A DNA stretch of 56,930 nt from Porticoccaceae bacterium (lineage in GTDB: Bacteria; Pseudomonadota; Gammaproteobacteria; Pseudomonadales; GM7GCV1), in assembly GCA_018662305.1 (NCBI GenBank), contig JABJGI010000131.1, positions 1 through 56,930 on the forward strand, written 5' to 3'. How positions within the stretch are numbered: the stretch's first letter is position 1; each line of letters opens with the position of its first letter. Below are positions 14,495 through 42,798 of the stretch, piece after piece. A program made the position numbers and the translations under genes. The notes beneath the pieces were generated by a model that was not told the DNA's origin, ran no database searches, and worked only from the letters and a program-made list of their open reading frames with translations.

Positions 14495-14518
14495 GAGGCG
14501 GCTTGAGCCGCCTTTTTT
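14495..14518 (+). terminator. Rho-independent terminator after cytochrome c4
   Basis: AGGCGGC (14496-14502) pairs with GCCGCCT (14507-14513) around a TTGA loop, followed by T (14513-14518). Confidence 0.92.
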
Positions 14519-14579
14519 GTGGCTTTCCAAGGCTATGATTGGATTAAAGCTATATAAGAGATCTAACTGGAGACAGCTA

Positions 14580-15227
14580 ATGCGTATCTTTTCAAAACTG
14601 GCGATTGCCTTTGTATTTGTCAGCTCAACTCAGGCCTTTGGTCAATCCGACGATTTTCAATATCAGGACGGTGTTGATTTCGAGACCCTGGCGCGGCCGG
14701 TTGCTGTTCAGGACCCCTCCAAAATTGAGGTGGCGGAAGTATTTTGGTACGGCTGTATTCACTGCTTTAACCTTGAACCTCGTCTGGACGAATTTGCATC
14801 CATCCTGCCGGACGACGTAAACCTGGTTAAAGTTCCCGCCATGTGGGCTGGGGCAATGGAGCTGCACGCTAGACTCTATTTTGCATCGGTAGCTTTGGGT
14901 ATCAATGAAGAGGTTCACTGGCCGGTGTTTCAGGCCATGAACGAAGAACGCAATCCCCTGAGCAGCGAAGGCGCTATTCTCGATCTGATAGAAAACTTGG
15001 GCCAAGACAGAGCGGCCTTTCAGCGAGCCCTGAACTCCTTTGGAGTTACTAGCCAAGTGACTCGCGCTAGATCAGCTGCTGCTGCCTATGGAATTCGGGG
15101 TACCCCGGAAATGATCGTGAACGGTAAATACCGCATATCTACCAGCATGACGGGTAGTCAGGAAAAAATGTTGTTGGTTACGGCTGCTCTGGTAGATCGT
15201 GAGCGCCAGATGGCAGAAAACCAGTAA
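14580..15227 (+). CDS. dsbA: DsbA-family thiol:disulfide interchange protein, copy 1
   Basis: DsbA oxidises cysteine pairs in exported proteins. The 215-aa precursor has a signal peptide (1-20, ending AFGQ), the active site Cys59-Ile-His-Cys62 in WYGCIHCFNLEP, and the cis-proline loop RGTPEM. The usual DsbA active site is CPHC, so Ile replaces Pro and may shift the redox potential. The ATG at 14580 follows a GGAGA ribosome site; the frame extends upstream but without one. A second, similar gene follows 30 bases later, so the pair looks like a tandem duplication. Confidence 0.9.
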   Translation: MRIFSKLAIAFVFVSSTQAFGQSDDFQYQDGVDFETLARPVAVQDPSKIEVAEVFWYGCIHCFNLEPRLDEFASILPDDVNLVKVPAMWAGAMELHARLYFASVALGINEEVHWPVFQAMNEERNPLSSEGAILDLIENLGQDRAAFQRALNSFGVTSQVTRARSAAAAYGIRGTPEMIVNGKYRISTSMTGSQEKMLLVTAALVDRERQMAENQ

Positions 15228-15257
15228 CAACGGGCGTTTTTAAGAGGGGAAAGAAGC

Positions 15258-15923
15258 ATGTCGATATATTTTAGGTCACTATTTTTCGTCTTCATTATCT
15301 TGGCGATTGGTTGTAGCTCGGATGGCGAGCCGCAAGGTTCAGAAGACGGCTTTGCCTACCGTGATGGTATCGATTTCCATAGCTTGCCCCAGCCCATTGC
15401 AACGGAAGACCCATCAAAAATTGAGCTGGTTGAAGCCTTTTGGTATGGCTGTATCCACTGCTACAACTTTGAGCCCTACTTAAAAGAATATGCAGCGGAG
15501 CTTCCAGAGTACGTGGACCTGGTAAAGGTTCCAGTCGCCTGGAACGATTATGCCGAGCTGCACGCAAAAATTTACTACGCAGCGGAAGTTCTCGGAATCA
15601 CTGATGAAATTCACGACGAAGTTTTTAGCGCCATGAACAGGGACAAGAAAACCTTAGCCAATGAGCAAGCGGTTCTCAACCTGATTGAAGATCTGGGGCA
15701 GAACAGAACGGCTTTTCAGCGAGCCTTCAACTCCTTTGGCGTTGGCGCTCAGATATCGCAATCCAAGGCGCGTATTACTGCCGCAGGTGTGCGCGGCACA
15801 CCCGAACTGATAGTAAATGGTAAATACCGCGTAGGCTCTTCTGCTGGTAGCCAGCAGCGTATGCTTGAGGTTGCTAATGCGCTTATCGAGCGCGAGCGCG
15901 AGCTACTTTCTAGTCAGCAATAA
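15258..15923 (+). CDS. DsbA-family protein, copy 2, probable lipoprotein
   Basis: The 221-aa product resembles its upstream neighbour closely: DGIDF, DPSKIE, FWYGCIHCYNFEP, LVKVP, AFQRAFNSFGV, RGTPELIVNGKYR. The active site is again CIHC (65-68). The N-terminus differs: residues 1-19 end in LAIGCSS, a plausible lipobox, so this copy is probably tethered to a membrane while copy 1 is soluble. A GAGGGG ribosome site precedes ATG 15258. The stop TAA shares its last A with the argS start, so argS is translationally coupled to it. Confidence 0.87.
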   Translation: MSIYFRSLFFVFIILAIGCSSDGEPQGSEDGFAYRDGIDFHSLPQPIATEDPSKIELVEAFWYGCIHCYNFEPYLKEYAAELPEYVDLVKVPVAWNDYAELHAKIYYAAEVLGITDEIHDEVFSAMNRDKKTLANEQAVLNLIEDLGQNRTAFQRAFNSFGVGAQISQSKARITAAGVRGTPELIVNGKYRVGSSAGSQQRMLEVANALIERERELLSSQQ

Positions 15924-20989: not shown

Positions 20990-22768
20990 TTAGATTTTTT
21001 CATCTTGAGTAAATAGGCTCTCAAGCTCTTTGCGGCCTTCCTTTGCGAGCTCTGTGAGTTTCTGAAAATCTTCTTTGTACTCTACTGCCTCTCGCAGTAG
21101 CTTTTCGTCGTGCTCTCGAAATATTTCAACCTTATCGATGGCTTGTGCTTCGGTGTAGCCTAGCGAAGCCAAGGTTTCTTGAGCCGCCTCGAGGCCGCTG
21201 GCGAAATATTCCCGGAAAACATGATCGACGTTCAGCGCATGCAGTTGATAGGCGTGATTTCGATTTACTGCGCGGGCAATAATGCGCAAGTCAGGGTATT
21301 TCTTTTTTACGGTTTCAATAATGGCGATGGAGTCTTCCGAGTTCACACAGACCACCATGAGCTGTGCATGGCCAATACCCGCAGCTTCTAAAACATCTAT
21401 TCGAGAGCCATCCCCGTAAAAAATCTTGTTGCCAAAGCGGCGAACAAAATCTACATGGGATGAGCTTTTATCCAAGGCCGTGAAGGGAATATCGTTTGCC
21501 GCCAGCATTCTGCCAATAATTTGTCCAAAACGGCCGAAGCCAGCGATGATCACCTCGGGTTCGTGAGATTCTGGGCTGGTGTCATAATCATCGCCCGCAT
21601 CTGTATGTCCTTTGGTATCGGAGACCTTTGACCAAAGGGAGACAAGCGGAGAGGTGAGCGCCATAGAAAGCCCAACGGTCAGTACAATCTGATTGACCAG
21701 TGCCACTTCCATAAAACCCAAACTGAGGGATTGGCTGAGTACCACAAAGGCAAATTCACCGCCTTGGGAAAGCATAAGACCTAGGCTAACGCTGTCGCGC
21801 CAGTTTTGTCCTGTTAGCCTCACTAGGCCGGCGATTACCGAAGTTTTTAGAACCAGGAGTATCAGAGCGCCACCAAAGATCAGTAGCGGATCACTCAACA
21901 TTAGGCTCAGATCCAGAGTCATTCCCACGGCAATAAAGAATAGCCCCAGCAACAGTCCTTTGAATGGCTCAATATCGGTCTGAAGCTGATGTCGAAAACT
22001 GGAATTGGCCAGCATGATGCCGGCGGTAAAGGCTCCAAGGCCCATGGAGAGACCGACCCATTCCACCAGAACAGCGGTCCCCAGCACGATAAGCAGTGCG
22101 GCTGCTGTCATGATTTCGCGGCTGCCGTACTGTGCAACTAAATGGAGGCAGGGGTTGAGAAGATAGCGGCTGGCAACCAGTAGACCAGCGATTGAGCCCA
22201 ATGAAATTAAGCCGTCGACAAAGTTGCCGGGATTTTCAGATGCAGCCTGGCCGGCCCAGATCGAAACCAGAACCAAAATAGGGATAACGGCAATATCCTG
22301 CAGCAGCAGAATGGAAAAACCTTTGCGCCCCAGTGCACTGGCGATAATGCCTCGCTCTGCCATAAGTTGTAGAGCAAAGGCGGTTGAGGAAAGCCCAAGG
22401 GTCAGGCCAAGTGCAATCGAAATCTTGCCAGTGGTTCCCGCGACAAAATAGAAAAGCAGGCAAAGCAAAATTGCGCTGATCACTAGCTGCCCACCGCCAA
22501 GCATGAGAATTTGAGATCTCATGCGCCAAAGTTTATCTGGCGCGAGTTCCAGCCCTATCACGAAGAGCAGCATCACCACGCCGAACTCGGCAAAATGCAA
22601 GGCAGCACTGGGGTCTTCAACCAGATGCAGGGTGCTTGGGCCAATCAATGCGCCTGCGGTAAGGTAGCCAAGAATTGAACCCAGACCAATTCGGCGAAAT
22701 ATGGGCACAGCAATTACGCTAGCCAGAAGGTAAAAGAGCACACTTTCCAGCAAATGATGTTCTTCCAT
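20990..22768 (-). CDS. Kef-type (CPA2) cation:proton antiporter with RCK/TrkA-N domain
   Basis: The 592-aa protein has an Na+/H+ exchanger membrane domain with about twelve helices (1-385), including the conserved GLELAPDKLWRMR and LSQGGEFAFV segments, then a cytoplasmic NAD-binding TrkA-N domain (about 408-525) with the Rossmann motif IAGFGRFGQIIGRML and the acidic D in DKSSSHVD. A coiled C-terminal tail follows. This is the KefB/KefC/YbaL architecture. Without the glutathione-specific features I cannot verify, I call it only Kef-like. It probably exports K+ or Na+ in exchange for protons. It is transcribed convergently to the thiolase and divergently from the kinase gene. Confidence 0.88.
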   Translation of the reverse strand: MEEHHLLESVLFYLLASVIAVPIFRRIGLGSILGYLTAGALIGPSTLHLVEDPSAALHFAEFGVVMLLFVIGLELAPDKLWRMRSQILMLGGGQLVISAILLCLLFYFVAGTTGKISIALGLTLGLSSTAFALQLMAERGIIASALGRKGFSILLLQDIAVIPILVLVSIWAGQAASENPGNFVDGLISLGSIAGLLVASRYLLNPCLHLVAQYGSREIMTAAALLIVLGTAVLVEWVGLSMGLGAFTAGIMLANSSFRHQLQTDIEPFKGLLLGLFFIAVGMTLDLSLMLSDPLLIFGGALILLVLKTSVIAGLVRLTGQNWRDSVSLGLMLSQGGEFAFVVLSQSLSLGFMEVALVNQIVLTVGLSMALTSPLVSLWSKVSDTKGHTDAGDDYDTSPESHEPEVIIAGFGRFGQIIGRMLAANDIPFTALDKSSSHVDFVRRFGNKIFYGDGSRIDVLEAAGIGHAQLMVVCVNSEDSIAIIETVKKKYPDLRIIARAVNRNHAYQLHALNVDHVFREYFASGLEAAQETLASLGYTEAQAIDKVEIFREHDEKLLREAVEYKEDFQKLTELAKEGRKELESLFTQDEKI

Positions 22769-22926: not shown

Positions 22927-24144
22927 ATGAAAAAGTCGAATATCGCCATCTGGAAACGGGATTGGTTCTTGGCGCTGATTCTATCAGCGTTATTCTTGGT
23001 ATTTTCCCAATCTGCACTTCTGCAGAGCATTGAAAGATTTGCCTACGATTGGGGTTTGCGCGCTTCTTCTGGACAACCCAGTGACCGAGTTGCGGTTATT
23101 GCCATCGACGACGAGAGCATAAGCAATATTGGCCGTTGGCCTTGGTCCCGTGAAATTCACGCAGAAATGATTGATGTGCTTTCCGAGGCCGGCGCCAAGG
23201 TAATAGGACATACCTCCTTCTTTTTCGAACCGCAACGGGATCCCGGGCTGGATATCGTTGAGAGCATCGGTATCTATTTGGAAGATTTTGGCCTTGCTGC
23301 TACCGATTTCGACGCGGACGGTTTTCCCGTATCAGTTCCAGGTTATGGTTTTGAAGAGCTGCGAGCCGTTATTAACGATGAATGGCCCTTATTAGAGCCG
23401 GGTGAAGATGAAGACCCTGAGGCCTTTGCTGAGCGGCAGGCAGCCAGTATCGAAAATCTCTCATTCGCTATTGAGGCGCTAGAGCTGCCCGCAGCGGAGC
23501 TTCATACACAGGTGTTCGCTGCCGTCGAAGCATTAGATGTAGATCAGATTCTTGCTAACAGTGTCGCTGAAGCAGGGAATGTGGTTTTGCCAATGTTTTT
23601 CTATGTGGGCCAACCACTGGGCAACCCGGATATGGCGATGCCCTCTTTTATTTCTGATACCAGCGCGCTGTTTAATATTCAGGATAACGTGCAAGCTGCG
23701 CAAAATGGTTTGTACCCTCTTGAATCACTCGGATTTGAAACGCCTATAGATGTTTTAGGCAGTTGGGCAGCTGGGGTTGGACATTTAAATGCGCTGCTCG
23801 ATGTCGATGGCGGTATTCGTTCAGAGCCTTTGGTGCTGGACTATTTCGGTGAGTCCTATCCCTCTCTGTCTCTTTTACTAGCGGCTCAGAGCTTAAACCT
23901 CAGCGTAGACGATGTTGTAGTGAAGCTCGGCGAAGGTGTTGATGTTGGTGGGCTGAGCATCGGCACAGATGACACCTTGCAAATGAATACCTTCTTTTAC
24001 ACGGAGCAAAATGGTCTTCCGCCTTTTCAGGTGGACTCCTTTTATGACGTGATATCTGGAGCCATTCCCGCGAGTAAATATCAGGACAAAATTGTTTTGA
24101 TTGGTTCCACTGCGGTCGGGTCGGGTTGGGTGCCACTCAGGTAA
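22927..24144 (+). CDS. CHASE2 sensor part of a Ser/Thr kinase, ended by a frameshift
   Basis: The 405-aa frame has one N-terminal helix (about 12-33) followed by a periplasmic CHASE2 domain with FAYDWGLRASS, VAVIAIDDESI, IGRWPWSR and, near the end, DKIVLIGSTAVG. CHASE2 domains normally continue through a few residues such as LGATQVTPV into membrane helices. Here the frame instead runs into GSGWVPLR and stops, while the expected continuation is present in the -1 frame from 24126. Removing one of two TCGGG copies at 24116-24125 restores a single frame of 906 aa through the kinase. The fragment alone would be an anchored sensor domain without output. Confidence 0.85.
   Translation: MKKSNIAIWKRDWFLALILSALFLVFSQSALLQSIERFAYDWGLRASSGQPSDRVAVIAIDDESISNIGRWPWSREIHAEMIDVLSEAGAKVIGHTSFFFEPQRDPGLDIVESIGIYLEDFGLAATDFDADGFPVSVPGYGFEELRAVINDEWPLLEPGEDEDPEAFAERQAASIENLSFAIEALELPAAELHTQVFAAVEALDVDQILANSVAEAGNVVLPMFFYVGQPLGNPDMAMPSFISDTSALFNIQDNVQAAQNGLYPLESLGFETPIDVLGSWAAGVGHLNALLDVDGGIRSEPLVLDYFGESYPSLSLLLAAQSLNLSVDDVVVKLGEGVDVGGLSIGTDDTLQMNTFFYTEQNGLPPFQVDSFYDVISGAIPASKYQDKIVLIGSTAVGSGWVPLR
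24116..24130 (+). repeat. TCGGG tandem repeat at the kinase frameshift
   Basis: TCGGG at 24116-24120 and 24121-24125 is followed by the near-copy TTGGG at 24126-24130. Loss of one 5-base unit gives codons for A-V-G-L-G-A-T-Q-V, the expected CHASE2 ending, and fuses the two frames. Confidence 0.85.
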
Positions 24145-25652
24145 CACCGGTTGATCCCGCTATGGCGCCAGTAGTGACCCTTGCGCATTCGGTGTCCAGC
24201 ATCCTCAATGAAGATTTCTTCACTAGCCCCAGTTGGAGTGTTTACGCCAGTCTTGGAGCCTTGTTGCTTGTTGCGCTCTATTTAATGCTGCTTTTGCCAC
24301 GCCTGAACGGCCGTGGTGGAGCTGTCCTTACTGTCGGCCTATTTGCTCTATTGGTAGTTGCGCACTATGTTTTGATGACCCAGCAATCCATGTGGGTGCC
24401 CTTGATGATTCCCGCAGCTTTATTGCTTGTCGGCTATACCCTCTTGTCGACGAAACAATTTCTGGTGGCAGAAGCCGGCAAGCGTATGTCGGATATGGAG
24501 TCTTCTGAAAGTAACCGCATGCTGGGTCTGGCATTTCAAAGCCAGGGTCAACTGGATATGGCCTTTGAGAAGTTTCGCAAGTGCCCCAAAGACGAGCAGA
24601 TTGCCGAGCCGGTTTACAACCTCGCGCTGGATTTTGAACGAAAACGCCAATTCGCCAAAGCCGGTGCTGCTTATCAATATGTTTATGATTTTGCGCCGGA
24701 CTTTAAAGACGTTAAAGAACGCATCGAACGCAGCAAGAAAATGGAAGACACCGTTATTCTCGGCGGTAGTGGTCATGCCGGTGCGGAACTCAGCTTGGAT
24801 ACTGCTGAGAAGCCCATGCTTGGTCGATATCAAGTTCAGAAGGAGCTGGGCAAAGGAGCCATGGGTATTGTTTATTTGGGCGAAGATCCGAAGATTAACC
24901 GCACCGTGGCCATTAAAACCATGGCGCTTTCACAGGAGTTTGAGGAAGACGAACTCGAGGATGTTAAGGAACGGTTTTTCCGAGAAGCGGAGACCGCAGG
25001 TCGCCTAAACCATCCCAATATCGTGACAATTTATGATGCCGGTGAGGAGCATGATCTGGCCTATATCGCCATGGAGTTTCTCAAAGGTAAAGATTTAGCG
25101 CCGCAGACCAAAAAGGACAATTTGCTTTCTCTCGGTAAGTCGATTGAGCTGACCCTAAAGTGTGCTTCGGCCCTCGATTATGCTCACAAGCAAAATGTAG
25201 TGCATCGAGATATCAAGCCGGCAAACGTGATGTATGACCCGGAATCTGGTGAGATCAAGATTACTGACTTTGGTATTGCCCGAATCACCGATTCAAGTAA
25301 AACCAAAACCGGTATGGTTCTGGGAACTCCTAGCTATATGTCGCCTGAGCAACTGGCGGGCAAGAAGGTTGACGGTCGATCCGATCTCTTTTCCCTTGCC
25401 GTGATGCTCTACCAGCTGTTGACAGGAAGCCTGCCCTTTCAGGCGGAGTCTATGGCAACCCTGATGTACAAGATAACTAATGATCCTCATCCGCGTGTGC
25501 GTGAGATGAATGCCAGCTTGCCTGAAGAGTTCGAAGCATTCTTTGAAAAAGCCCTGGCCAAGGAAGCCGATGAGAGATTTCAGAGCGGTGCAGAGTTGTC
25601 GCGCGCACTGAAAGACACGGTTAGAAAAATAAAAGAAAGACAAAAAGGTTAA
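24126..25652 (+). CDS. Membrane Ser/Thr protein kinase part of the split CHASE2 kinase
   Basis: The frame (up to 508 aa from TTG 24126) encodes the end of CHASE2 (GATQVTPV), three helices (about 38-58, 63-82 and 88-108), a tetratricopeptide-like stretch (about 120-200, with MLGLAFQSQGQLDMAFEKF) and a eukaryotic-type kinase domain (about 235-505). Kinase motifs are complete: GKGAMGIVYLG (P-loop), VAIKTM (catalytic Lys), FREAE (helix C Glu), HRDIKPANV (catalytic Asp), TDFGIAR (metal Asp) and GTPSYMSPEQL. So the output domain looks active, but it is out of frame with its sensor. Whether the TTG serves as a start is unknown. The phosphatase gene begins two bases after its stop. Confidence 0.88.
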   Translation: MGATQVTPVDPAMAPVVTLAHSVSSILNEDFFTSPSWSVYASLGALLLVALYLMLLLPRLNGRGGAVLTVGLFALLVVAHYVLMTQQSMWVPLMIPAALLLVGYTLLSTKQFLVAEAGKRMSDMESSESNRMLGLAFQSQGQLDMAFEKFRKCPKDEQIAEPVYNLALDFERKRQFAKAGAAYQYVYDFAPDFKDVKERIERSKKMEDTVILGGSGHAGAELSLDTAEKPMLGRYQVQKELGKGAMGIVYLGEDPKINRTVAIKTMALSQEFEEDELEDVKERFFREAETAGRLNHPNIVTIYDAGEEHDLAYIAMEFLKGKDLAPQTKKDNLLSLGKSIELTLKCASALDYAHKQNVVHRDIKPANVMYDPESGEIKITDFGIARITDSSKTKTGMVLGTPSYMSPEQLAGKKVDGRSDLFSLAVMLYQLLTGSLPFQAESMATLMYKITNDPHPRVREMNASLPEEFEAFFEKALAKEADERFQSGAELSRALKDTVRKIKERQKG

Positions 25653-25654
25653 TC

Positions 25655-26488
25655 ATGGACCTGACCGAAAGCATTGAGATAGTTTGCCGCACGGATACGG
25701 GACAAAAAAGAGAACACAATGAAGACGCGGTGGGCTCTGACAATAGCTTGGGCCTAGTTGTATTGGCCGATGGTATGGGTGGGTATCAGGCCGGAGAAGT
25801 CGCTAGCGAAATGGCGGTTAATATCGTTTTGTCTGATATTCAGGACAACTATCAGGAAGCGATGACAGAAGAGGTGGACGATTTCACCGGCATGTCCCCA
25901 GCCAGCACCCTGATTGAAAATGCCATTGTGAAAGCCAATTCCGCCATTCACTCTTCGGCGCAGCAAAAGAGTCAATATCAGGGAATGGGGACGACTATCG
26001 TCGTCGCCCTGATGCACGAAAACATTGTTTCCATTGGGCATGTTGGAGATTCGCGACTCTACCGGTTGCGGGACGAGAAACTGGAATTGATCACCGAAGA
26101 TCACTCGCTAGTGCGTGAGCTGGTGCGCAAGGGCTATTACACAGAGGCCGAAGCTCGAGAAGCGACCAACAAAAATGTGGTTACTCGGGCCCTTGGCGTT
26201 GATTCAGAAGTTGAGCCTGAGGTACAGGAAGACATGGCGCTTTTGGACGACCTCTATTTGCTTTGTTCTGATGGCCTCAACGACATGATTGAAGATCGGG
26301 AAATCGAGGATATTTTGCTTCGCTATGGCGCTGATCTCGAGCAAACGGCAGATCAGTTAATTCAACTTGCTAATCAGATGGGAGGAAAAGACAATATATC
26401 CGCTATACTTTTGAGACCGGTTAGGCCCTTCGTCACCAAGCTGACACTGTTTGGACGCGTGGGACGCTGGTTTACCGCTAAAAAATAG
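25655..26488 (+). CDS. PP2C-family Ser/Thr protein phosphatase
   Basis: PP2C phosphatases reverse phosphorylation by the neighbouring kinase. The 277-aa protein has the PPM motifs with metal-binding aspartates: REHNEDAVG, ADGMGGYQAGEVAS, GMGTTIVVAL, HVGDSRLYRLRD, EDHSLVRELV, LCSDGLNDMI and GGKDNISAILL. The C-terminus ends in a basic stretch with no membrane anchor. It lies two bases after the kinase stop and 18 bases before the FHA gene, so the three form one signalling unit. Confidence 0.94.
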   Translation: MDLTESIEIVCRTDTGQKREHNEDAVGSDNSLGLVVLADGMGGYQAGEVASEMAVNIVLSDIQDNYQEAMTEEVDDFTGMSPASTLIENAIVKANSAIHSSAQQKSQYQGMGTTIVVALMHENIVSIGHVGDSRLYRLRDEKLELITEDHSLVRELVRKGYYTEAEAREATNKNVVTRALGVDSEVEPEVQEDMALLDDLYLLCSDGLNDMIEDREIEDILLRYGADLEQTADQLIQLANQMGGKDNISAILLRPVRPFVTKLTLFGRVGRWFTAKK

Positions 26489-26506: not shown

Positions 26507-27214
26507 ATGCAAGCTAAACTGCTGATAACTCTCAACAATACTCTGGTTTCCGAGCACAGTTTGGAAGGCGAAGTTACCAGTATTGGTCGCAAATCTGACA
26601 GCGATATCCACATCGATAATCCAGCTGTTAGCGGCAAACACGCACGGGTTCTATATATCGGTGGCGAAGCGTTTTTGGAAGATTTGGAAAGCACCAATGG
26701 TACTTTCGTAAATAGTGAACGAATTACCAAGCACCTTCTTAAAAACGGTGATCTGATTTCCATTGGTCAGCACCAGCTGAAATTTGAGGGTGCGGCGGAA
26801 GAAGAAGGTGATCTAGATAAAACCCTTGTTATAAAACCATACGCGCCCGGCATGGAGGGAACCGCTGCATTTGAGGCGGCGGCTCTCGAAAAAGAGAAGC
26901 AACAGAAAGAGGCAGAGGCTAGGGCAGCGGATGTTTCAGATGAAGAACGTCCGGCGCTTCTGCAATTGCTGTCTGGCCCCAATAACGGCAAAAAAATGGC
27001 GCTCACCAAATCGATTACGCGTCTCGGAAAACCTGGAGAGCAGGTTGCTGCCATCGCCAAGCGTCCAGCGGGCTATTTTGTTATGCATCTTGGAGGCAAT
27101 ACGCCTCAGCCCATTGTGAATGGCGCTAATGTCGGTACTCAGGCTACGGAGTTAAAGCACGGAGACATTATCGAAGTGGGCAAGATTCGAATGAAGATAT
27201 TGATCCCTAGCTAG
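26507..27214 (+). CDS. FHA-domain protein with a second, degenerate FHA-like domain
   Basis: FHA domains bind phosphothreonine, so this is a likely substrate or reader of the adjacent kinase. The 235-aa protein has a classical N-terminal FHA domain (about 5-90) with SIGRKSDSDI, SGKHARV and STNGTFVN, all the phosphopeptide-contact motifs. A linker (about 95-145) rich in Glu, Lys and Ala, probably helical, contains DKTLVIKPY, whose Thr could be a phosphorylation site. The C-terminal region (about 150-235) has the shape of an FHA domain (SITRLGK, PIVNGANVG, LKHGDIIEVG) but lacks the SxxH motif. No type VI secretion genes are nearby. Confidence 0.88.
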   Translation: MQAKLLITLNNTLVSEHSLEGEVTSIGRKSDSDIHIDNPAVSGKHARVLYIGGEAFLEDLESTNGTFVNSERITKHLLKNGDLISIGQHQLKFEGAAEEEGDLDKTLVIKPYAPGMEGTAAFEAAALEKEKQQKEAEARAADVSDEERPALLQLLSGPNNGKKMALTKSITRLGKPGEQVAAIAKRPAGYFVMHLGGNTPQPIVNGANVGTQATELKHGDIIEVGKIRMKILIPS

Positions 27215-27258: not shown

Positions 27259-28503
27259 ATGAATAACGATCCAGTAGAAACCTATCTAGTCGGCGGCGCT
27301 GTGCGCGATGAACTGCTGGGTATTCCAGTGAAAGAGAAGGATTGGGTGGTGGTAGGTAGTACGCCAGAAGCTATGGTGGACAAAGGATTTCGTCCCGTTG
27401 GCCAATCTTTTCCGGTCTTTATTCATAGTCAAAGCGGCGAAGAATATGCACTGGCCCGCACGGAAAGAAAGACGGGCAGAGGCTATAAAGGCTTTAGTTT
27501 CTTCACCGACCCCAGTGTGACATTGGAGCAGGATCTTCTGCGCAGAGATCTCAGTATCAATGCTATTGCGATGAGAGATAACGGCGAACTGATTGACCCT
27601 CTGGGCGGCAGAGGGGATATTGAAAGACGAGTGCTGAGACATGTTTCTGATGCATTTTTGGAAGACCCTCTCCGAGTACTCCGCGTGGCTCGTTTTGTGG
27701 CTCAACTGGCAGAATTCGATTTTACTATTGCGTCTGAAACCTTGGAGCTGATGGAAAAAATGGTTGAGTCTGGCGAGCTCGAAGATTTGACCGCAGAACG
27801 TGTTTGGATTGAAACCGAAAAAGCATTGCAGACAGTTCGTCCGCGCCTTTACTTTGAGACCCTAAGAAAGATGGGTGCTTTAAAGGTTCTTTTTCCGGAA
27901 ATTGACCGCCTGTTTGGCGTCCCGCAGAACCCCAAATATCATCCGGAAATCGATACGGGACTGCATATCCTGTTGAGCCTGGATCAGATATGCGCAGAGT
28001 CAAATGTGCTTAGGCTTCGATTCTCTGTACTGGTTCATGATCTCGGAAAAGGCACCACGCCTAGAGACCAGTGGCCCAGCCACAATGGTCACGAAGAGCG
28101 AGGTGTGAAGCAGATTGAGAATCTGGCGAAGCGACTGCGAATACCGAATGATTGCCGAGATCTTGCCATCAAGGTTTCCCGCTGGCATTTGCACTGTCAC
28201 AGGGCCTTGGAGCTCAAAGCAGCCACTATAGAAAAGCTTTTTAGTGGATTAGATTTATGGAGAAACCCGCAATTGTTACCTGAGTTTTTATCCTGCTGCC
28301 AGGCGGATATCAGAGGCCGAACCGGTATGGAAAACAACGATTATCCTCAAGCCGCATATCTAACGGACTGTTTTCAGGCAGCCTTGACCGTTGATTCACA
28401 AAAAATACGGGAAGCCGGTTTTGAAGGTGAGGCAATTGGGAAAAAGATGCGCGAGGCACGGATAGCCGCTATACAAGATGCCAAAGAGCGTCGAGCCAGC
28501 TAG
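27259..28503 (+). CDS. cca: CCA tRNA nucleotidyltransferase with HD domain
   Basis: Cca adds or repairs the 3' CCA end of tRNAs. The 414-aa protein matches the gammaproteobacterial form: nucleotidyltransferase head with YLVGGAVRDELLG and the catalytic DWV motif (EKDWVVVG), RRDLSINAIA, EDPLRVLRVARF, and a C-terminal HD phosphohydrolase domain with VHDLGKG and HNGHEERG. The HD domain gives the Escherichia coli type extra phosphatase and phosphodiesterase activities. It is convergent with aroB, 13 bases apart, and no terminator is visible between them. Confidence 0.96.
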   Translation: MNNDPVETYLVGGAVRDELLGIPVKEKDWVVVGSTPEAMVDKGFRPVGQSFPVFIHSQSGEEYALARTERKTGRGYKGFSFFTDPSVTLEQDLLRRDLSINAIAMRDNGELIDPLGGRGDIERRVLRHVSDAFLEDPLRVLRVARFVAQLAEFDFTIASETLELMEKMVESGELEDLTAERVWIETEKALQTVRPRLYFETLRKMGALKVLFPEIDRLFGVPQNPKYHPEIDTGLHILLSLDQICAESNVLRLRFSVLVHDLGKGTTPRDQWPSHNGHEERGVKQIENLAKRLRIPNDCRDLAIKVSRWHLHCHRALELKAATIEKLFSGLDLWRNPQLLPEFLSCCQADIRGRTGMENNDYPQAAYLTDCFQAALTVDSQKIREAGFEGEAIGKKMREARIAAIQDAKERRAS

Positions 28504-29598: not shown

Positions 29599-30141
29599 TT
29601 AGAGTCCAAATACTTCGGGACAACGATTTTTTAGCTCTTCCATGACAGCTGCTGCCATGGAGTTTGGCGACTCCCTATCGGAAGACTTCAACACGATATC
29701 TGCGACATCGAGGTATAGTGGGCCGCGTTTATCCAGTATATCGGTTATAGCCCTTTGAGGGTTCTCCACCTGCAGCAGAGGTCGATTGGTATCGTGTTTA
29801 ACGCGTTGATAAATTTGTTCTGCCGTTGCGGACAGATAAACCACCACACCAGCTTTTCGCAGAATTTGGCGGTTTTTCTCGGAGATGACTGCACCGCCGC
29901 CCGTGGCCAACAATATTCCGGTCTGATTACAAAGTTCCGTAAGGATTTCGGTTTCTCTGGCGCGAAAACCGGCTTCCCCTTCAATATCGAAGATCCAGGG
30001 GATGTCGGCGCCACATCGAGCTTCTAGCTCATGATCGGAATCAATAAATTGCAGATCCAGGCGGCTGGCAAGGAGTTTACCGACAGAGGTCTTGCCGGCA
30101 CCCATGGGACCAACAAGGACCAGATTGGCCCTTGCTGTCAT
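29599..30141 (-). CDS. aroK: Shikimate kinase
   Basis: AroK phosphorylates shikimate at O3. The 180-aa protein has the P-loop GPMGAGKTSVG (about 11-21), the shikimate-binding DSD and FRARE motifs (IDSDHELE, GFRARETE), GGGAV and the lid region HDTNRPLL. The start ATGA overlaps the pilQ stop, so its translation is coupled to the pilus operon. Confidence 0.95.
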   Translation of the reverse strand: MTARANLVLVGPMGAGKTSVGKLLASRLDLQFIDSDHELEARCGADIPWIFDIEGEAGFRARETEILTELCNQTGILLATGGGAVISEKNRQILRKAGVVVYLSATAEQIYQRVKHDTNRPLLQVENPQRAITDILDKRGPLYLDVADIVLKSSDRESPNSMAAAVMEELKNRCPEVFGL

Positions 30142-32282
30142 TGAGTCGTGATATTGTCGTTTAAGATTTTAGGAGTAATGAACATCAGGATTTCGCGTTT
30201 TTCTTGGCTCGTTACTTCGCTTCTGAAAGCTTGGCCAAGGAACGGTAGGCTGCCTAAGACTGGGACACGAGTTTCTTCGTCGATGGATGTCATTTGGAAG
30301 ATTCCTCCCAACACCAGAGTTTCCCCGTTGTCGACCAAGACCTGAGTCTCGAGTGATGTCACATCAATTGTGGGCTCGCCTCCAAAGACGAGGTCACCGA
30401 TAGAGTCTTGCGAGATAATCAGATCCAGAATGACTCGATCATCGGGCGTAATTTGAGGTGTTACTTGCAGCGAAAGAACGGCCTCTTTGAACGAGGTCGT
30501 CGTTGCTCCACTAGCCGCCGCTTCTTGATAAGCCACTTCCTGACCCGAGCGAATAAGCGCTGTTTGTTTGTCGCCGGTAATCACTTTGGGCTGAGAAACG
30601 ATTTCGCCGTGTCCCTCACTCTCTAGCGCAGACAATTCTAGATCTACCCATGCCGAGTCACTTAGGAAAGCGACACCGAGACTGGCTGCTGGAGAGGCTA
30701 CACCTAGATCCACTGCTAATGCGTCTTCTAAAGTGAGGGTGTTCTCATTGTTGAAAAATCCGAGCGGCCCACCATCAGAAAATATCTCCCGAGAGCCACC
30801 AAATTGCAGCGCAGAGTCTCCCCCTTCCAAGGTACGAACTCCGGCATTACCCCAGCGAACGCCCAGTTCGTTGCGGAAATCGGTATTTGCGATAACTAAA
30901 CGAGCCTCAATAAGCACTTGTCGGATGGGTACGTCGATCTGCTCTACTAGCGCAAGAAAAGCACTAATCTTGGCGTCAGTGTCTGTCAATATGATGGTAT
31001 TGGTTCTGGCGTCCACAATAGCCGAGCCACGTTCAGATAGAGCGCTTGCCGTAGTGCCACTAGCCGTGCTTTCGGCATCAGCTGCAGCATCGGTTTCGGG
31101 TCCTATGAGCAATGACGCAATGGTGGTTGCATCAGCATATCGAATACGTACAAATTCAGTTCTCAGTGGTGCCAACTCCTCGAGTTGACGATTGGCTTGC
31201 ACTTCCAGTCGCTCTCGCTCAGCTATTTCAGCGATAGGGGCGACAAGCAGTACGTTGCCGTCCATGCGTTGATCCAGACCTTTCGCCTTGAGAATAATAT
31301 CCAGAGCCTGATCCCAAGGAACGTTTTCTAGTCTCAAAGTAATGCTGCCGTTGACCGTATCGCTGGCAACCAGATTTAAGCCGATTAAATCTGCAATAAG
31401 TTGCAGCACCGCTCTAACCTCGATGCTTTGAAAATTGAAAGAGAATGTCTCGCCGATAAATTGAGATTGCGCTAGCAGCTCTGCCTCTGCAACTGCAGAC
31501 AGCGGCTTCACACTTAATACAAAGGAGCTATCCGCTTGATAGGCCAGGTAGTCAAAACCGGCTAGGGTGGTGATACTTACCTGCACCTCGTTGTCGACCT
31601 GATCAACGGTAATGTCTCTGATGGGTGTCGCAAAATCTACAACATCAAATATGCGTTCATACTGAGTCGGTATATCAGTTCCGAAAAAGCGTAACAAAAT
31701 CTGGCTGCCGCTCTGTTCAACATCAGAACTAATTTGGTTGCCAGTAAATTCAAACTGGATATTACCCTCACCCTGTTCGCCGCGATTAAACTGAAAATCC
31801 GTAATGCGAGAGCTCGTGGTGCTGGAGAAATTGCTTGCTGGAGCTGCATTGACTGCAGATGGCATCGCTACGGGAGCAGAAGGCGCTCCCGCTGCACTTG
31901 AGCCAACTTGAAGAAAGATACGATTACCAGACTGTCGAGCCTCGTACTCCGCGGAGGTTCCAAGGTTGAGCACCAATCGAGTGCGATCGTTTGTACCCAA
32001 TAGCAACGCTTCGGAAGCATTAGCAAATGAGAGAGAAAATTCGCGTTCCACTACCTCATTTGTTACCTGAGGTAAGTCCAAGACAATACGCGCAGGCTCT
32101 TCGATCACATAAACCTGAGTCTCGATTTGTTCGAAGTCAGATAAAACGAGTTCGACCTCAAAGGCGTCCTGACCTAGGGCAGAAAAATTAATTGACTGCA
32201 CCGAAGTGGCTTGGACATGGCTTGCCATCAATAGCAGCACGAAGCTAATCGTCTGTTTCATGGAAATACCCTTAAAGTTCAT
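30138..32282 (-). CDS. pilQ: Type IV pilus secretin PilQ
   Basis: PilQ forms the outer-membrane channel for the pilus fibre. The protein (up to 714 aa) has a signal peptide, two AMIN domains (about 30-110 and 160-270), an STN/N0 domain (about 285-350, QLIADLIGLNLVASDTVNG), the N1 domain (about 370-450) and the C-terminal secretin domain with IRQVLIEARLVIAN, GEIVSQPKVITGDKQ and VPVLGSLPFLGQAFR. Two starts are possible: 32282 (AGGA upstream) or MKQT at 32261 (AAGGG upstream), the latter giving a more usual signal peptide. It is the fifth gene of pilMNOPQ. Confidence 0.95.
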   Translation of the reverse strand: MNFKGISMKQTISFVLLLMASHVQATSVQSINFSALGQDAFEVELVLSDFEQIETQVYVIEEPARIVLDLPQVTNEVVEREFSLSFANASEALLLGTNDRTRLVLNLGTSAEYEARQSGNRIFLQVGSSAAGAPSAPVAMPSAVNAAPASNFSSTTSSRITDFQFNRGEQGEGNIQFEFTGNQISSDVEQSGSQILLRFFGTDIPTQYERIFDVVDFATPIRDITVDQVDNEVQVSITTLAGFDYLAYQADSSFVLSVKPLSAVAEAELLAQSQFIGETFSFNFQSIEVRAVLQLIADLIGLNLVASDTVNGSITLRLENVPWDQALDIILKAKGLDQRMDGNVLLVAPIAEIAERERLEVQANRQLEELAPLRTEFVRIRYADATTIASLLIGPETDAAADAESTASGTTASALSERGSAIVDARTNTIILTDTDAKISAFLALVEQIDVPIRQVLIEARLVIANTDFRNELGVRWGNAGVRTLEGGDSALQFGGSREIFSDGGPLGFFNNENTLTLEDALAVDLGVASPAASLGVAFLSDSAWVDLELSALESEGHGEIVSQPKVITGDKQTALIRSGQEVAYQEAAASGATTTSFKEAVLSLQVTPQITPDDRVILDLIISQDSIGDLVFGGEPTIDVTSLETQVLVDNGETLVLGGIFQMTSIDEETRVPVLGSLPFLGQAFRSEVTSQEKREILMFITPKILNDNITTQ

Positions 32283-32296
32283 GGCTCAGTCCTGAA

Positions 32297-32815
32297 TTAA
32301 TTTTGTACTTTTACTGATCGAGGTCGCTCTATCCAGCCGCCCTGCCCGTCTGGAACAATCTCGATCACGCTTACTTCGGTGTCGTTAATACTAACAATCT
32401 TACCGTGGTTCTGCCCAAGGAAATTACCTGCTCGCACTCGATGAACCGTGCCGTTCGACTCGCTAATAAGTGCCCATGAAGTCCCATTCATCGCAATGCT
32501 GCCAACTACGCTGAGTTCGGCAAAATTAAAGCGTTCTAGATACTCTTGCGGTCGATTTGTATCTGGTGGGGCTGAAGGGGTTCCGGTTTCTTGGCGCGTC
32601 ACAACATTGCGCGGTATCTCGAAAGGTGCTCGCAAGCCGGCAGCAGAATATATGACTGACACGTAGGGCGGGGATGCAGGTAGAGGGTCGATGCGACCAC
32701 CGCGCTGTGCCTTTTCTTGCTCCATAAAGGAGTACAGATCTTCATTTGAGCTGGATTGGCAACCCATAATCAGTGCGGACAGAGAAAGCGTAATAAAGAG
32801 TTTAAAAGTCTTCAT
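32297..32815 (-). CDS. pilP: Type IV pilus assembly lipoprotein PilP
   Basis: PilP is an inner-membrane lipoprotein that links the PilMNO platform to PilQ. The 172-aa product has a lipoprotein signal ending LIMGCQSS, a flexible region with AQRGGRIDPLP, and a beta domain (about 90-170) with FNFAELSVVGSI and VHRVRAGNFLGQNHGKI, the conserved PilP core. It is 10 bases after pilO and 14 before pilQ. Confidence 0.94.
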   Translation of the reverse strand: MKTFKLFITLSLSALIMGCQSSSNEDLYSFMEQEKAQRGGRIDPLPASPPYVSVIYSAAGLRAPFEIPRNVVTRQETGTPSAPPDTNRPQEYLERFNFAELSVVGSIAMNGTSWALISESNGTVHRVRAGNFLGQNHGKIVSINDTEVSVIEIVPDGQGGWIERPRSVKVQN

Positions 32816-32825
32816 CGGCCTAAAC

Positions 32826-33437
32826 CTACTCTCCAGAGTCCCGATATCTGTATGTCTTAGCGTCGATGTTCATAGTCAACAACACTTCGTTATCTCCAGA
32901 TATTGAAAAGTCGTGTAGCGTGACGATTCTTGGTAAGCCCGCGACACCGCTTACAAAAGTTGCAAAGTCATGATAGCCGCCTGTGGCAACGATATTAATA
33001 GGTAGCTCGACGTAATAATCGTGAGCGATCTCTGGCTCGAGAATAATATTTTCAATAGTTAATCCGCTACCCAGACCGGTTTCAGTAACATCTTCCAGGA
33101 GGCCAGGCACCTCTGTGTCAGTAGGTAGTTGGCCGATCAAAGTCTCTAGGCGTAACTCCAACTCTTCAAGCTGAAGTCGATAAGCTTCGAGGTTTGCCGC
33201 CTGAAATGCTCGCTGAGAAAATTGTTCTCGCAGCTGAGTTTCCGAAGCAACGGCATTGGAAAAAGTGGTATTTAACGCATTTATACGAAAATACCAATAA
33301 CCACCTATAGCAAGAACAAGTGTCAAAATACAGGCCAAAATTCTAACAATGAGAGGCCAGCTGCCGACGTTGTCGAGACGAATCTCGGTGAAATCGATAT
33401 TCTGAAGTTCGTCTATTATTCCGCGAAAATCAATCAT
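32826..33437 (-). CDS. pilO: Type IV pilus inner-membrane protein PilO
   Basis: PilO pairs with PilN in the inner-membrane alignment complex. The 203-aa protein has a short cytoplasmic N-terminus containing DFRGIIDELQNIDF, one helix (about 30-50), a coiled-coil (about 55-100, rich in Glu, Leu and Gln) and a ferredoxin-like periplasmic domain with LPTDTEVPGLLEDVT and NIVATGGYHDFATFVSGVA. It lies five bases after pilN. Confidence 0.94.
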   Translation of the reverse strand: MIDFRGIIDELQNIDFTEIRLDNVGSWPLIVRILACILTLVLAIGGYWYFRINALNTTFSNAVASETQLREQFSQRAFQAANLEAYRLQLEELELRLETLIGQLPTDTEVPGLLEDVTETGLGSGLTIENIILEPEIAHDYYVELPINIVATGGYHDFATFVSGVAGLPRIVTLHDFSISGDNEVLLTMNIDAKTYRYRDSGE

Positions 33438-33442
33438 GGCAG

Positions 33443-34012
33443 CTAGGCATCAGGGGAATCTTCCCCTTCCTCTTCGTTGTCTACCTGAATAACCATAGTG
33501 AAACTAGAACCCTGGTCACCAAGGGTTGGATCTGCATCTACGCGTGTGAGATTTGGAGCAGAGAATTTCTCTGAATTGTCAAGTTGGCGCATAAAGGCGG
33601 AAACGCGATTATTGGATTCTGCTTTACCTTCGAGAGAGAGGCTGTTCCCCACAACGGCGAGCTCTTCAATATAAGTTCCATCGGGAATTGAGCGAGCAAA
33701 TTCATCAAACAGCCGCACAATCTCTGGGCGGTTAGTTTGCAGGCCTTTTATAACTGCCATTCGATCAATCATATCGGCTTTGCTATCACGCAAGGCGCGA
33801 ATCTCGGCAACCTGGGTTTCAAGGTCATCGATTCCTGTTTGTAGAACCGAGTTTCTCGCTTCCTGAGCATTGATCTTACTGGAAATATTTACTTCCCATG
33901 CATAGCCGATCAGCAAGCCCAGTATGAAGACCCCCGAAACAACAACGGTAAACTGTCTTTTTCGTTCCTCTCGGAGCTCTTCGCGCCAGGGTAATAAATT
34001 AATATCCGGCAT
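33443..34012 (-). CDS. pilN: Type IV pilus inner-membrane protein PilN
   Basis: PilN binds PilM through its cytoplasmic N-terminus, and the conserved INLLPWREELR motif is at residues 4-14. One helix (about 24-43), a coiled-coil (about 45-85) and a periplasmic domain follow (189 aa). The acidic C-terminal tail NEEEGEDSPDA is a small oddity. The ATG overlaps the pilM stop (TAATG). Confidence 0.95.
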   Translation of the reverse strand: MPDINLLPWREELREERKRQFTVVVSGVFILGLLIGYAWEVNISSKINAQEARNSVLQTGIDDLETQVAEIRALRDSKADMIDRMAVIKGLQTNRPEIVRLFDEFARSIPDGTYIEELAVVGNSLSLEGKAESNNRVSAFMRQLDNSEKFSAPNLTRVDADPTLGDQGSSFTMVIQVDNEEEGEDSPDA

Positions 34013-35076
34013 TAGCTCACCCCTCTCATTGCTAGACCAGTAGCGATCAGCAAGCTGGGTGAGATTTTGCTGAGCTGTTTTTGATCAGTGCGCGCACCGC
34101 AAGGCATATGTTTAAAAGGATTTGCAGCGACAACGGGCAGCTCGATTTTAGATTCTGTCATCTCTACCAGCTCTGGGCTGCTGACGATACCGCCGGACAG
34201 AATCAGACAGTCTAAATTGGTATAGGAGGTCGACGAATAGAAGAACTGCAATGAACGAGATATTTGCTGTATCAGAGAATCGCGGAAGGGCGCCAAAACT
34301 TCCTGCTCGTAGTCGCCGGGCAAATCGCCCTCTCTTTCTGCTGCGATTGCCTCTTCCTCTGAAAGGCCATAGCGGCGCTGAATTTCTTCACTTAATTGTT
34401 TGGTACCGAAGGCTTCCTCCCGACTATAAACCGTGGATCCTCTGTCCAGTACGTTTATTCGTAGGTTGGTCGCACCGCAATCGACCACCGCAATCAAGCC
34501 GTCGTTGTCTTCTTCCAATTGGTCAGCTAATAACGGATAGACTCGCTCGAGACAAAAGGGCTCAACATCGACAATTTTTGATTCTAGGTCAGCCTGCTCG
34601 ACCATTTCCGTAAGGGCATCGATACCTTCCTTTCGGCAAGCAGCGAGTAATACTTTTACCTGCTCGGTTCCTTCCTCTCCCTCGGCAATGATAGTGAAAT
34701 CTACGGCGACTTCTTCCAGTGAGTAGGGGATGTACTGTTCAGCTTCCATAAGCAGCTGAGTTTCCAGCTCGTCTTCTGTAAGGTCTCCGGGCATATCCAA
34801 AACACGAGTAATTACTGCTGATCCTGGAACGGCTAGTGCAACATGCTTGGCTTTGGTTCGCATTAAGGCAACAGCTTTTCTCAGGGTTTGTGCGAGCGTA
34901 GGAATATCGGCAATTTTTCCTTCGACGATGGTATTCGAAGGGATAGGGAAGACCCCGGCATTTTGTACGGTGGTGGTGCGGCCTGAGCGAGAAAGCTCAA
35001 CAATTTTTAAACTCGTCGAGCCAATATCAATCCCCAATAGAGGCTCGCTTTTTTTTGCTAACAGAGGTATCTGCAT
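34012..35076 (-). CDS. pilM: Type IV pilus assembly ATPase-fold protein PilM
   Basis: PilM is a cytoplasmic actin-like protein that anchors the PilNO complex. The 354-aa protein carries LLGIDIGSTSLKIVEL (phosphate 1), VDCGATNLRINVLDRG (phosphate 2) and LILSGGIVSSPEL (adenosine motif) of the FtsA/PilM family. It is the first gene of the pilMNOPQ-aroKB unit and is divergent from mrcA across 115 bases. Promoter-like elements on the minus strand there are weak. Confidence 0.96.
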   Translation of the reverse strand: MQIPLLAKKSEPLLGIDIGSTSLKIVELSRSGRTTTVQNAGVFPIPSNTIVEGKIADIPTLAQTLRKAVALMRTKAKHVALAVPGSAVITRVLDMPGDLTEDELETQLLMEAEQYIPYSLEEVAVDFTIIAEGEEGTEQVKVLLAACRKEGIDALTEMVEQADLESKIVDVEPFCLERVYPLLADQLEEDNDGLIAVVDCGATNLRINVLDRGSTVYSREEAFGTKQLSEEIQRRYGLSEEEAIAAEREGDLPGDYEQEVLAPFRDSLIQQISRSLQFFYSSTSYTNLDCLILSGGIVSSPELVEMTESKIELPVVAANPFKHMPCGARTDQKQLSKISPSLLIATGLAMRGVS

Positions 35077-40868: not shown

Positions 40869-40938
40869 AAGTAGATTCTTGCCGCGTTTTTTTGAGCGGT
40901 ATCCCCTATATGCATACCCATGATCTTGGAGAAAGTTG

Positions 40939-41472
40939 ATGGAACAGTATCGTGGTACAACTATTGTGTCGGTTCGCCGTGGAGACAAAGTCTGCATTGG
41001 TGGAGATGGGCAGGTAAGCCTCGGCAATACCGTAATGAAAGGCAATGCCCGCAAAGTCAGACGCTTATATAAGGATCAGGTGATAGCCGGTTTTGCCGGG
41101 GGAACTGCTGATGCTTTCACCCTGTTTGAACGCTTTGAAGCTAAGTTAGAAGCCCATCAGGGTAATCTGGTGAGGTCGGCTGTAGAGCTGGCAAAGGACT
41201 GGCGCACAGACCGTATCCTGCGTCGATTGGAAGCCCTACTGGCTGTTGCTGATGCGGAATCTTCACTCATTATTACGGGCAACGGTGACGTTATTGAGCC
41301 GGAAGATGATTTGATTGCTATCGGATCTGGCGGGCCCTTCGCGCAATCTGCGGCGCGGGCACTATTAAACAATACTGACTTGGAAGCGCGCGAGATTGTA
41401 GAAAAGTCTCTTGAGATCGCTGCGGATATTTGTATTTACACCAACCACAATCGAACCATTGAGGAGCTTTAG
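40939..41472 (+). CDS. hslV: ATP-dependent protease peptidase subunit HslV
   Basis: HslV is the proteolytic core of the HslVU complex. The 177-aa protein contains the threonine-protease start TTIVSVRRG, then [36 protein letters not shown] and [13 protein letters not shown]. In Escherichia coli only Met precedes the catalytic Thr; here six residues (MEQYRG) come first, so a short propeptide must be removed to expose Thr7. ATG 40939 with GGAG at 40928-40931 is preferred over the TTG just upstream. hslU starts three bases after the stop. Confidence 0.96.
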
Positions 41473-41475
41473 TCG

Positions 41476-42798
41476 ATGTCCCAAATGACACCTCGTGAAA
41501 TTGTTCATGAGCTCAATCGCCATATCGTTGGACAGGATCAGGCCAAGCGTGCGGTAGCAATAGCTCTGCGGAATCGCTGGCGCCGTATGCAGATTGAAGA
41601 ACCGATGCGCAGTGAAATTAGCCCCAAGAATATTTTGATGATTGGCCCTACAGGTGTGGGTAAAACCGAAATCGCTCGGCGCCTGGCAAAATTAGCTAAT
41701 GCGCCGTTTATCAAGGTAGAGGCTACAAAATTTACTGAAGTCGGTTACGTTGGCAAGGATGTTGAATCAATCATTCGTGACCTGACAGATATGGCGATTA
41801 AGATGCAGCGCGAACAGGAAGTTGAGCGCGTAAGTTATCGCGCACAGGATGCGGCGGAAGAGCGTTTGTTGGATATTCTTTTGCCGCCAGCCAGGGGTGG
41901 GGAATCAGGCGAGTCTCCCGACAGCAATACCCGCCAAATCTTTAGGAAAAAGATTCGCGAGGGAGAGTTAGACGACAAAGAAATCGAACTCGCAGTGGCC
42001 AGTCAAAAACTGGGAATGGAAATTATGACCCCGCCTGGCATGGAAGAAATGGCGAATCAGCTGCAGGATATGTTTTCCAATATGGGCAATGCTCAGAAGC
42101 AGAATCGAAAGATGCCGCTCAAGCAAGCCAAGAAGCTTCTAGAGGAAGAGGAAGCGCAAAAACTTATCGATCAGGAATCGATTAAAACTTCAGCGCTTCA
42201 AATGGTCGAGCAAAATGGCATTGTCTTTATCGATGAAATTGACAAGGTTGCGAAGCGTGGTGAAGTCAGTGGAACTGACGTGTCGCGTGAAGGAGTTCAG
42301 AGAGATCTGCTTCCTTTGATTGAAGGTTCAACCGTCTCCACCAAGCACGGTATGGTGAAGACTGATCACATTCTCTTCATTGCTTCTGGAGCATTTCACC
42401 TGAGCAAACCCTCCGATTTGATTCCAGAATTACAGGGTCGATTGCCAATACGAGTCGAGCTAGATGCGCTTTCCGCAGGTGACTTTGAACGAATTTTGCA
42501 GGAGCCGGATGCGTCACTCACCAATCAGTATCAGCAGTTGCTGCAGACAGAAGCGGTACAACTAGATTTTGCCAGTGATGGTATTGAGCGTATTGCGCAA
42601 ACTGCCTGGGCGGTCAATGAGAGAACTGAGAATATTGGTGCTCGACGGCTGCATACCTTGATGGAAAAGCTGCTCGAGAATGTGTCCTTTGACTCGGCAG
42701 ATCTTGAAGGAAAGGCATTGGTTATAGACGCCGCTTACGTCGATCAGCAGCTCGAGGAGCTCGCTGCAGACGAAGACCTCTCTAGATACATACTTTAG
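41476..42798 (+). CDS. hslU: HslU ATPase subunit
   Basis: HslU is the AAA+ unfoldase that feeds HslV. The 440-aa protein has Walker A GPTGVGKT (57-64), the pore motif GYVGKD, the intermediate domain (about 110-240), Walker [12 protein letters not shown], the sensor region and the C-terminal SRYIL tail that docks into HslV. It follows hslV by three bases and shares its heat-shock promoter. Confidence 0.98.

Follow-up and report, generated by a model that had tools for sequence, protein, structure and literature searches.

A five-base duplication in a CHASE2-Ser/Thr kinase gene of a Porticoccaceae bacterium and its probable place in the loss of a kinase-PP2C-FHA module

The kinase locus and its neighbours

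The DNA analysed here, which we call the window, is a stretch of 56,930 nucleotides that makes up contig C128 of a 170-contig, 2.24-Mb draft genome of a Porticoccaceae bacterium. On its forward strand, a gene for a CHASE2-type sensor kinase lies in two different frames. The 5' part (positions 22,927 to 24,144) codes for 405 aa that comprise an N-terminal transmembrane (TM) segment and a CHASE2 sensor (Pfam CHASE2, E 4e-39), and ends in a premature TAA after the frameshift. The 3' part (24,078 to 25,652, forward strand) holds the end of CHASE2, TM segments, a TPR-like linker and a Ser/Thr kinase domain. The kinase frame as listed (24,126 to 25,652) amounts to 508 aa and matches Pfam Pkinase with an E of 3.8e-56; its TTG start at 24,126 is only mechanical, since the frame is already open from 24,078, and the sensor and kinase frames thus overlap by 67 nt (24,078 to 24,144). 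The catalytic motifs are all present, namely the glycine loop GKGAMG, VAIK, HRDIKPAN and DFG. Re-reading of the sequence and its open reading frames confirmed the coordinates and frames of the split given in a preliminary description of this DNA, as well as its statement that everything downstream of the break is intact, with all kinase motifs and no further stop. The succession of CHASE2, TM segments and Pkinase is supported by the Pfam matches in both frames and by an alignment with two orthologues, L033 and L034, that spans the TM segments and the linker. However, sensor and kinase do not share one open reading frame, the two frames being offset by the 5-bp unit described below. Translation from 22,927 stops at 24,144 and so misses the final strands of CHASE2 as well as everything after them, from the TM segments to the kinase; consequently no membrane sensor kinase can result from ordinary reading.

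The kinase gene is followed on the same strand by two intact genes of the same module, one for a PP2C-type phosphatase (25,655 to 26,488; Pfam PP2C_2, E 1.2e-16), with orthologues after the kinase in L033, L034 and the sister-genus genome G004, and one for an FHA-domain protein (26,507 to 27,214; Pfam FHA, E 2.5e-25), whose position is shared with the same three. The flanking genes code for a KefB-like antiporter (20,990 to 22,768, reverse strand), intact in the window and in the family genomes G002 and G001, and for the tRNA nucleotidyltransferase Cca (27,259 to 28,503, forward strand), intact in the window and in G002. A literature search on the kinase-PP2C-FHA module returned nothing. Elsewhere in the genome to which the window belongs (G000), contigs C97 and C11 carry other Ser/Thr kinase, PP2C and FHA-like genes (L042, L046, L053, L054, L055 and L060), several of them clustered on C97; hence signalling of this type may partly remain. 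A second CHASE2 protein is encoded in the same genome by an intact frame of 749 aa (L001, C141:16406-17422). Among the other genes of the window are two adjacent, tandem paralogous thioredoxin-fold genes (14,517 to 15,923; DsbA-like by sequence); G002 likewise has two, and each matches the other in tblastn searches.

The break site and intact orthologues

Read directly, positions 24,112 to 24,131 are GCGGTCGGGTCGGGTTGGG. Within them lies a period-5 tract, GGTCGGGTCGGGT (24,114 to 24,126, forward strand), of 2.6 units, in which the duplicated TCGGG pair occupies 24,116 to 24,125. First-order Markov resampling of the 57-kb window predicts 1.0 period-5 tracts of at least 13 nt, and 1 is observed; tandem 5-mer tracts as a whole number 31 against about 44 expected. 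The repeat by itself is at chance level; that it falls precisely where a single orthologous protein is broken is not. In G002, a sister species of the same genus, five bases are missing at the aligned site, which there reads IGATAVGLGTTQVTPVDPAM and is translated as AVGLGTTQV; this agrees with the earlier proposal that an extra TCGGG unit constitutes the break. The further proposal, that both frames are pieces of a single CHASE2-TM-kinase gene, is borne out by the Pfam matches in the two frames and by more distant orthologues that have both domains in a single frame (L033, 879 aa; L034, 886 aa; G028, an 890-aa frame). In the closer orthologues in which it could be read out in full, the linker motif IGxTAxGxGxxxxTP is of constant length. 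A TCGGG repeat tract is absent from the orthologues inspected (G002, L033, L034 and G028). Relatives with two units, or with two separate genes, had been named beforehand as speaking against a split of one gene; the relatives compared are without the extra unit and have one gene. Given that G002 does not have the unit, and that the orthologues are single-frame proteins with a linker of fixed length at this site, the extra unit is derived in the window lineage.

A profile built on the TM segments and the linker was also searched against the class (369 genomes) and the order (391 genomes). Close matches, defined by an E of at most about 4e-60 and counted by hand from the class-survey table with the window itself left out, numbered 57; none of these has an internal stop and 54 of the 57 have an open frame of at least 800 aa. 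The three shorter matches are those in G268 (a run of N) and G345 (a contig edge) and the second match in G414 (696 aa). L091, the match in G268, was considered as another broken orthologue and dropped, its interruption being the run of N. A search of genome contigs with the sensor yielded only two outgroups. In the genome of the window, a search for a second assembled version of the junction yielded the single version only, and in viral contigs neither an exact match to the 5' flank of the junction nor a relative of the kinase fragment turned up.

Taken together, these observations make it very probable that the TCGGG duplication put the sensor-kinase gene out of frame. Slippage or microhomology at a GGT...GGT already present in GGTCGGGT would probably have produced the 5-bp tandem duplication within the window lineage; the two GGT triplets, five bases apart, offer a simple route to it. 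The duplication would have displaced the reading frame of a CHASE2-TM-Ser/Thr kinase gene that was otherwise intact. To judge from the sequence, this lesion is recent: of 285 residues on which all seven outgroups agree, the window gene keeps 273, its deviations are mostly conservative, and it has no stop besides the one caused by the frameshift, which together indicate that it was constrained until recently. Any relaxation of constraint is too recent to show, as the residues are still conserved. Synonymous sites are saturated between the window and G002, so that dN/dS is uninformative and offers no dating. A relative-rate comparison in which gene and controls had different outgroups gave 13 changes on the window branch to 41 on that of G002, against 138 to 175 in controls (p 0.007); when the outgroups came from the same seven genomes, the result depended on the threshold (6:19 against 27:29, p 0.05; 14:25 against 33:36, p 0.31). 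Because significance weakened with matched outgroups, we take this test as supporting only: it does no more than suggest that the window gene has changed less than its G002 counterpart.

Lesions of the same gene in family relatives

In all three family genomes that can be judged, namely those of the window, G002 and G004, the kinase gene is broken, each time in another way. In G002 the three genes occupy the corresponding position next to the KefB-like gene, but the kinase gene has accumulated at least five separate net frameshifts and one stop, and the PP2C and FHA genes are decayed, partly deleted and fused into one remnant; owing to this deletion, the global alignment with G002 carries no meaning beyond the kinase. 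The genes around the locus are intact in G002, and poor sequence quality is therefore an unlikely cause of its decay. What the sister genus (G004) retains is a 250-aa frame in which about 60 residues from the N-terminus of the sensor continue, in frame, into the kinase C-lobe; some 2 kb between them have been deleted, and with them the remaining sensor sequence, all TM segments, the linker and the ATP-binding lobe. The PP2C and FHA genes of G004 are intact. There is some chance that this junction is an assembly chimera. G001 was kept out of the family count as its contig ends inside the gene; its cca is likewise cut by a contig end, and the remaining part of its kinase gene may lie in an assembly gap. 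An orthologue of the window CHASE2 kinase was not found in G003. The window has neither the G002 lesions nor the G004 lesion, so that the breaks in the family are independent.

G002 differs from the window at other places as well. The pilM-N-O-P-Q type region of the window (30,138 to 35,076) is intact, and the syntenic place in G002 has a truncated pilM with the rest missing; PilP (PF04351) is present in every searched family genome but G002. The hslV- and hslU-like genes of the window (40,936 to 42,798; assigned by sequence) likewise have no counterpart at the syntenic position of G002.

Gene loss and its alternatives

We consider it probable that the window carries a recent inactivating 5-bp duplication, and that this is one instance of the family losing the kinase-PP2C-FHA module repeatedly and independently. 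The three genomes suggest an order in which the kinase would be lost first and PP2C and FHA later. Since the sister species and the sister genus have different, irreversible lesions in the same gene, the locus looks like ordinary gene loss at an early stage and not like a genetic switch. The intact state of PP2C and FHA in the window means that the module may still be used, and this would also fit a minority-strain or assembly artefact. The strongest rival is indeed that the duplication stems from misassembly or a mixture of strains, the real or dominant sequence having a single unit and an intact gene, which we hold to be unlikely. The draft state of the assembly, in 170 contigs, would allow for this, as would the intact and well-conserved remainder of the gene and the intact PP2C and FHA genes. 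However, of the window genes that have a relative in G002 or G001, this is the only one divided between frames, and indel errors are accordingly not frequent there; moreover, the assembly has one version only, an exact 5-bp duplication is atypical as a consensus error of short or long reads, and two relatives have independent breaks in this gene. The preliminary description had called the break recent, reversible or an assembly error, and the intact rest of the gene upholds the first and the last of these; reversibility finds no support, given the chance-level tract and the irreversible lesions in relatives.

Those same lesions weigh on the suggestion that gain and loss of one TCGGG unit act as a reversible phase-variation switch. 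It owes its appeal to a direct repeat lying exactly at the break, where dropping one unit restores the frame, but slippage-driven phase variation usually involves far more repeats than two (here 2.6) copies of a 5-mer, the tract is at chance level with no longer one in the orthologues inspected, and the gene has decayed irreversibly in relatives, so that we regard such a switch as very improbable; a literature search on slippage gave nothing decisive. The specific form of this idea, in which cells alternate between a signalling and a non-signalling CHASE2 kinase by reversible gain or loss of TCGGG while PP2C and FHA stay expressed, deserves still less credence, and the on/off switching in a population that was first proposed is not supported, given a single assembled version and lesions beyond repair in both the sister species and the sister genus. 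It would be notable if true, and nothing that we found favours it. There is equally little to recommend expression of the gene as it stands, either by -1 ribosomal frameshifting in the overlap (24,078 to 24,144) or through an internal start that yields the kinase as a polypeptide of its own. The frames overlap by 67 nt, and a -1 shift could join them; the strength of ribosome-binding sites does not speak against internal initiation, those of neighbouring genes being weak too. Nevertheless, a canonical slippery X_XXY_YYZ heptamer was not found in the overlap, and a -1 shift after the repeat would add two residues to a linker that is of fixed length in the orthologues read out; for internal initiation the sole candidate starts near the break are a TTG and, at 24,162, an ATG with poor support, and the product would be devoid of the sensor.

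Loss of the module, the reading that we prefer, would make the window an early-stage example of how a one-component Ser/Thr kinase system is lost, with other and later stages on display in its relatives. The order of loss, from the kinase to the phosphatase and FHA protein, is a question that can be tested by comparing more genomes of the family. The case also cautions against taking short chance repeats for genetic switches.

Comparison with known systems

Slippage-based phase-variable (contingency) genes share with the window a tandem repeat inside the coding frame whose unit is not a multiple of three, but the window has only 2.6 units, no tract in the orthologues inspected and a single assembled state. 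With the intact CHASE2-TM-Ser/Thr kinases (CHASE2, PF05226; Pkinase, PF00069) that are accompanied by PP2C and FHA, as in L033 and L034, it has in common the domain content, the order and the neighbours. In contrast to these, its kinase is split by the 5-bp duplication and yields no one-frame polypeptide, which constitutes a disrupting lesion relative to intact orthologues. The gene also resembles a recent frameshift pseudogene in a gene-losing lineage, with one frameshift, conserved residues otherwise and further decayed copies in relatives, although here the PP2C and FHA partners are still intact.
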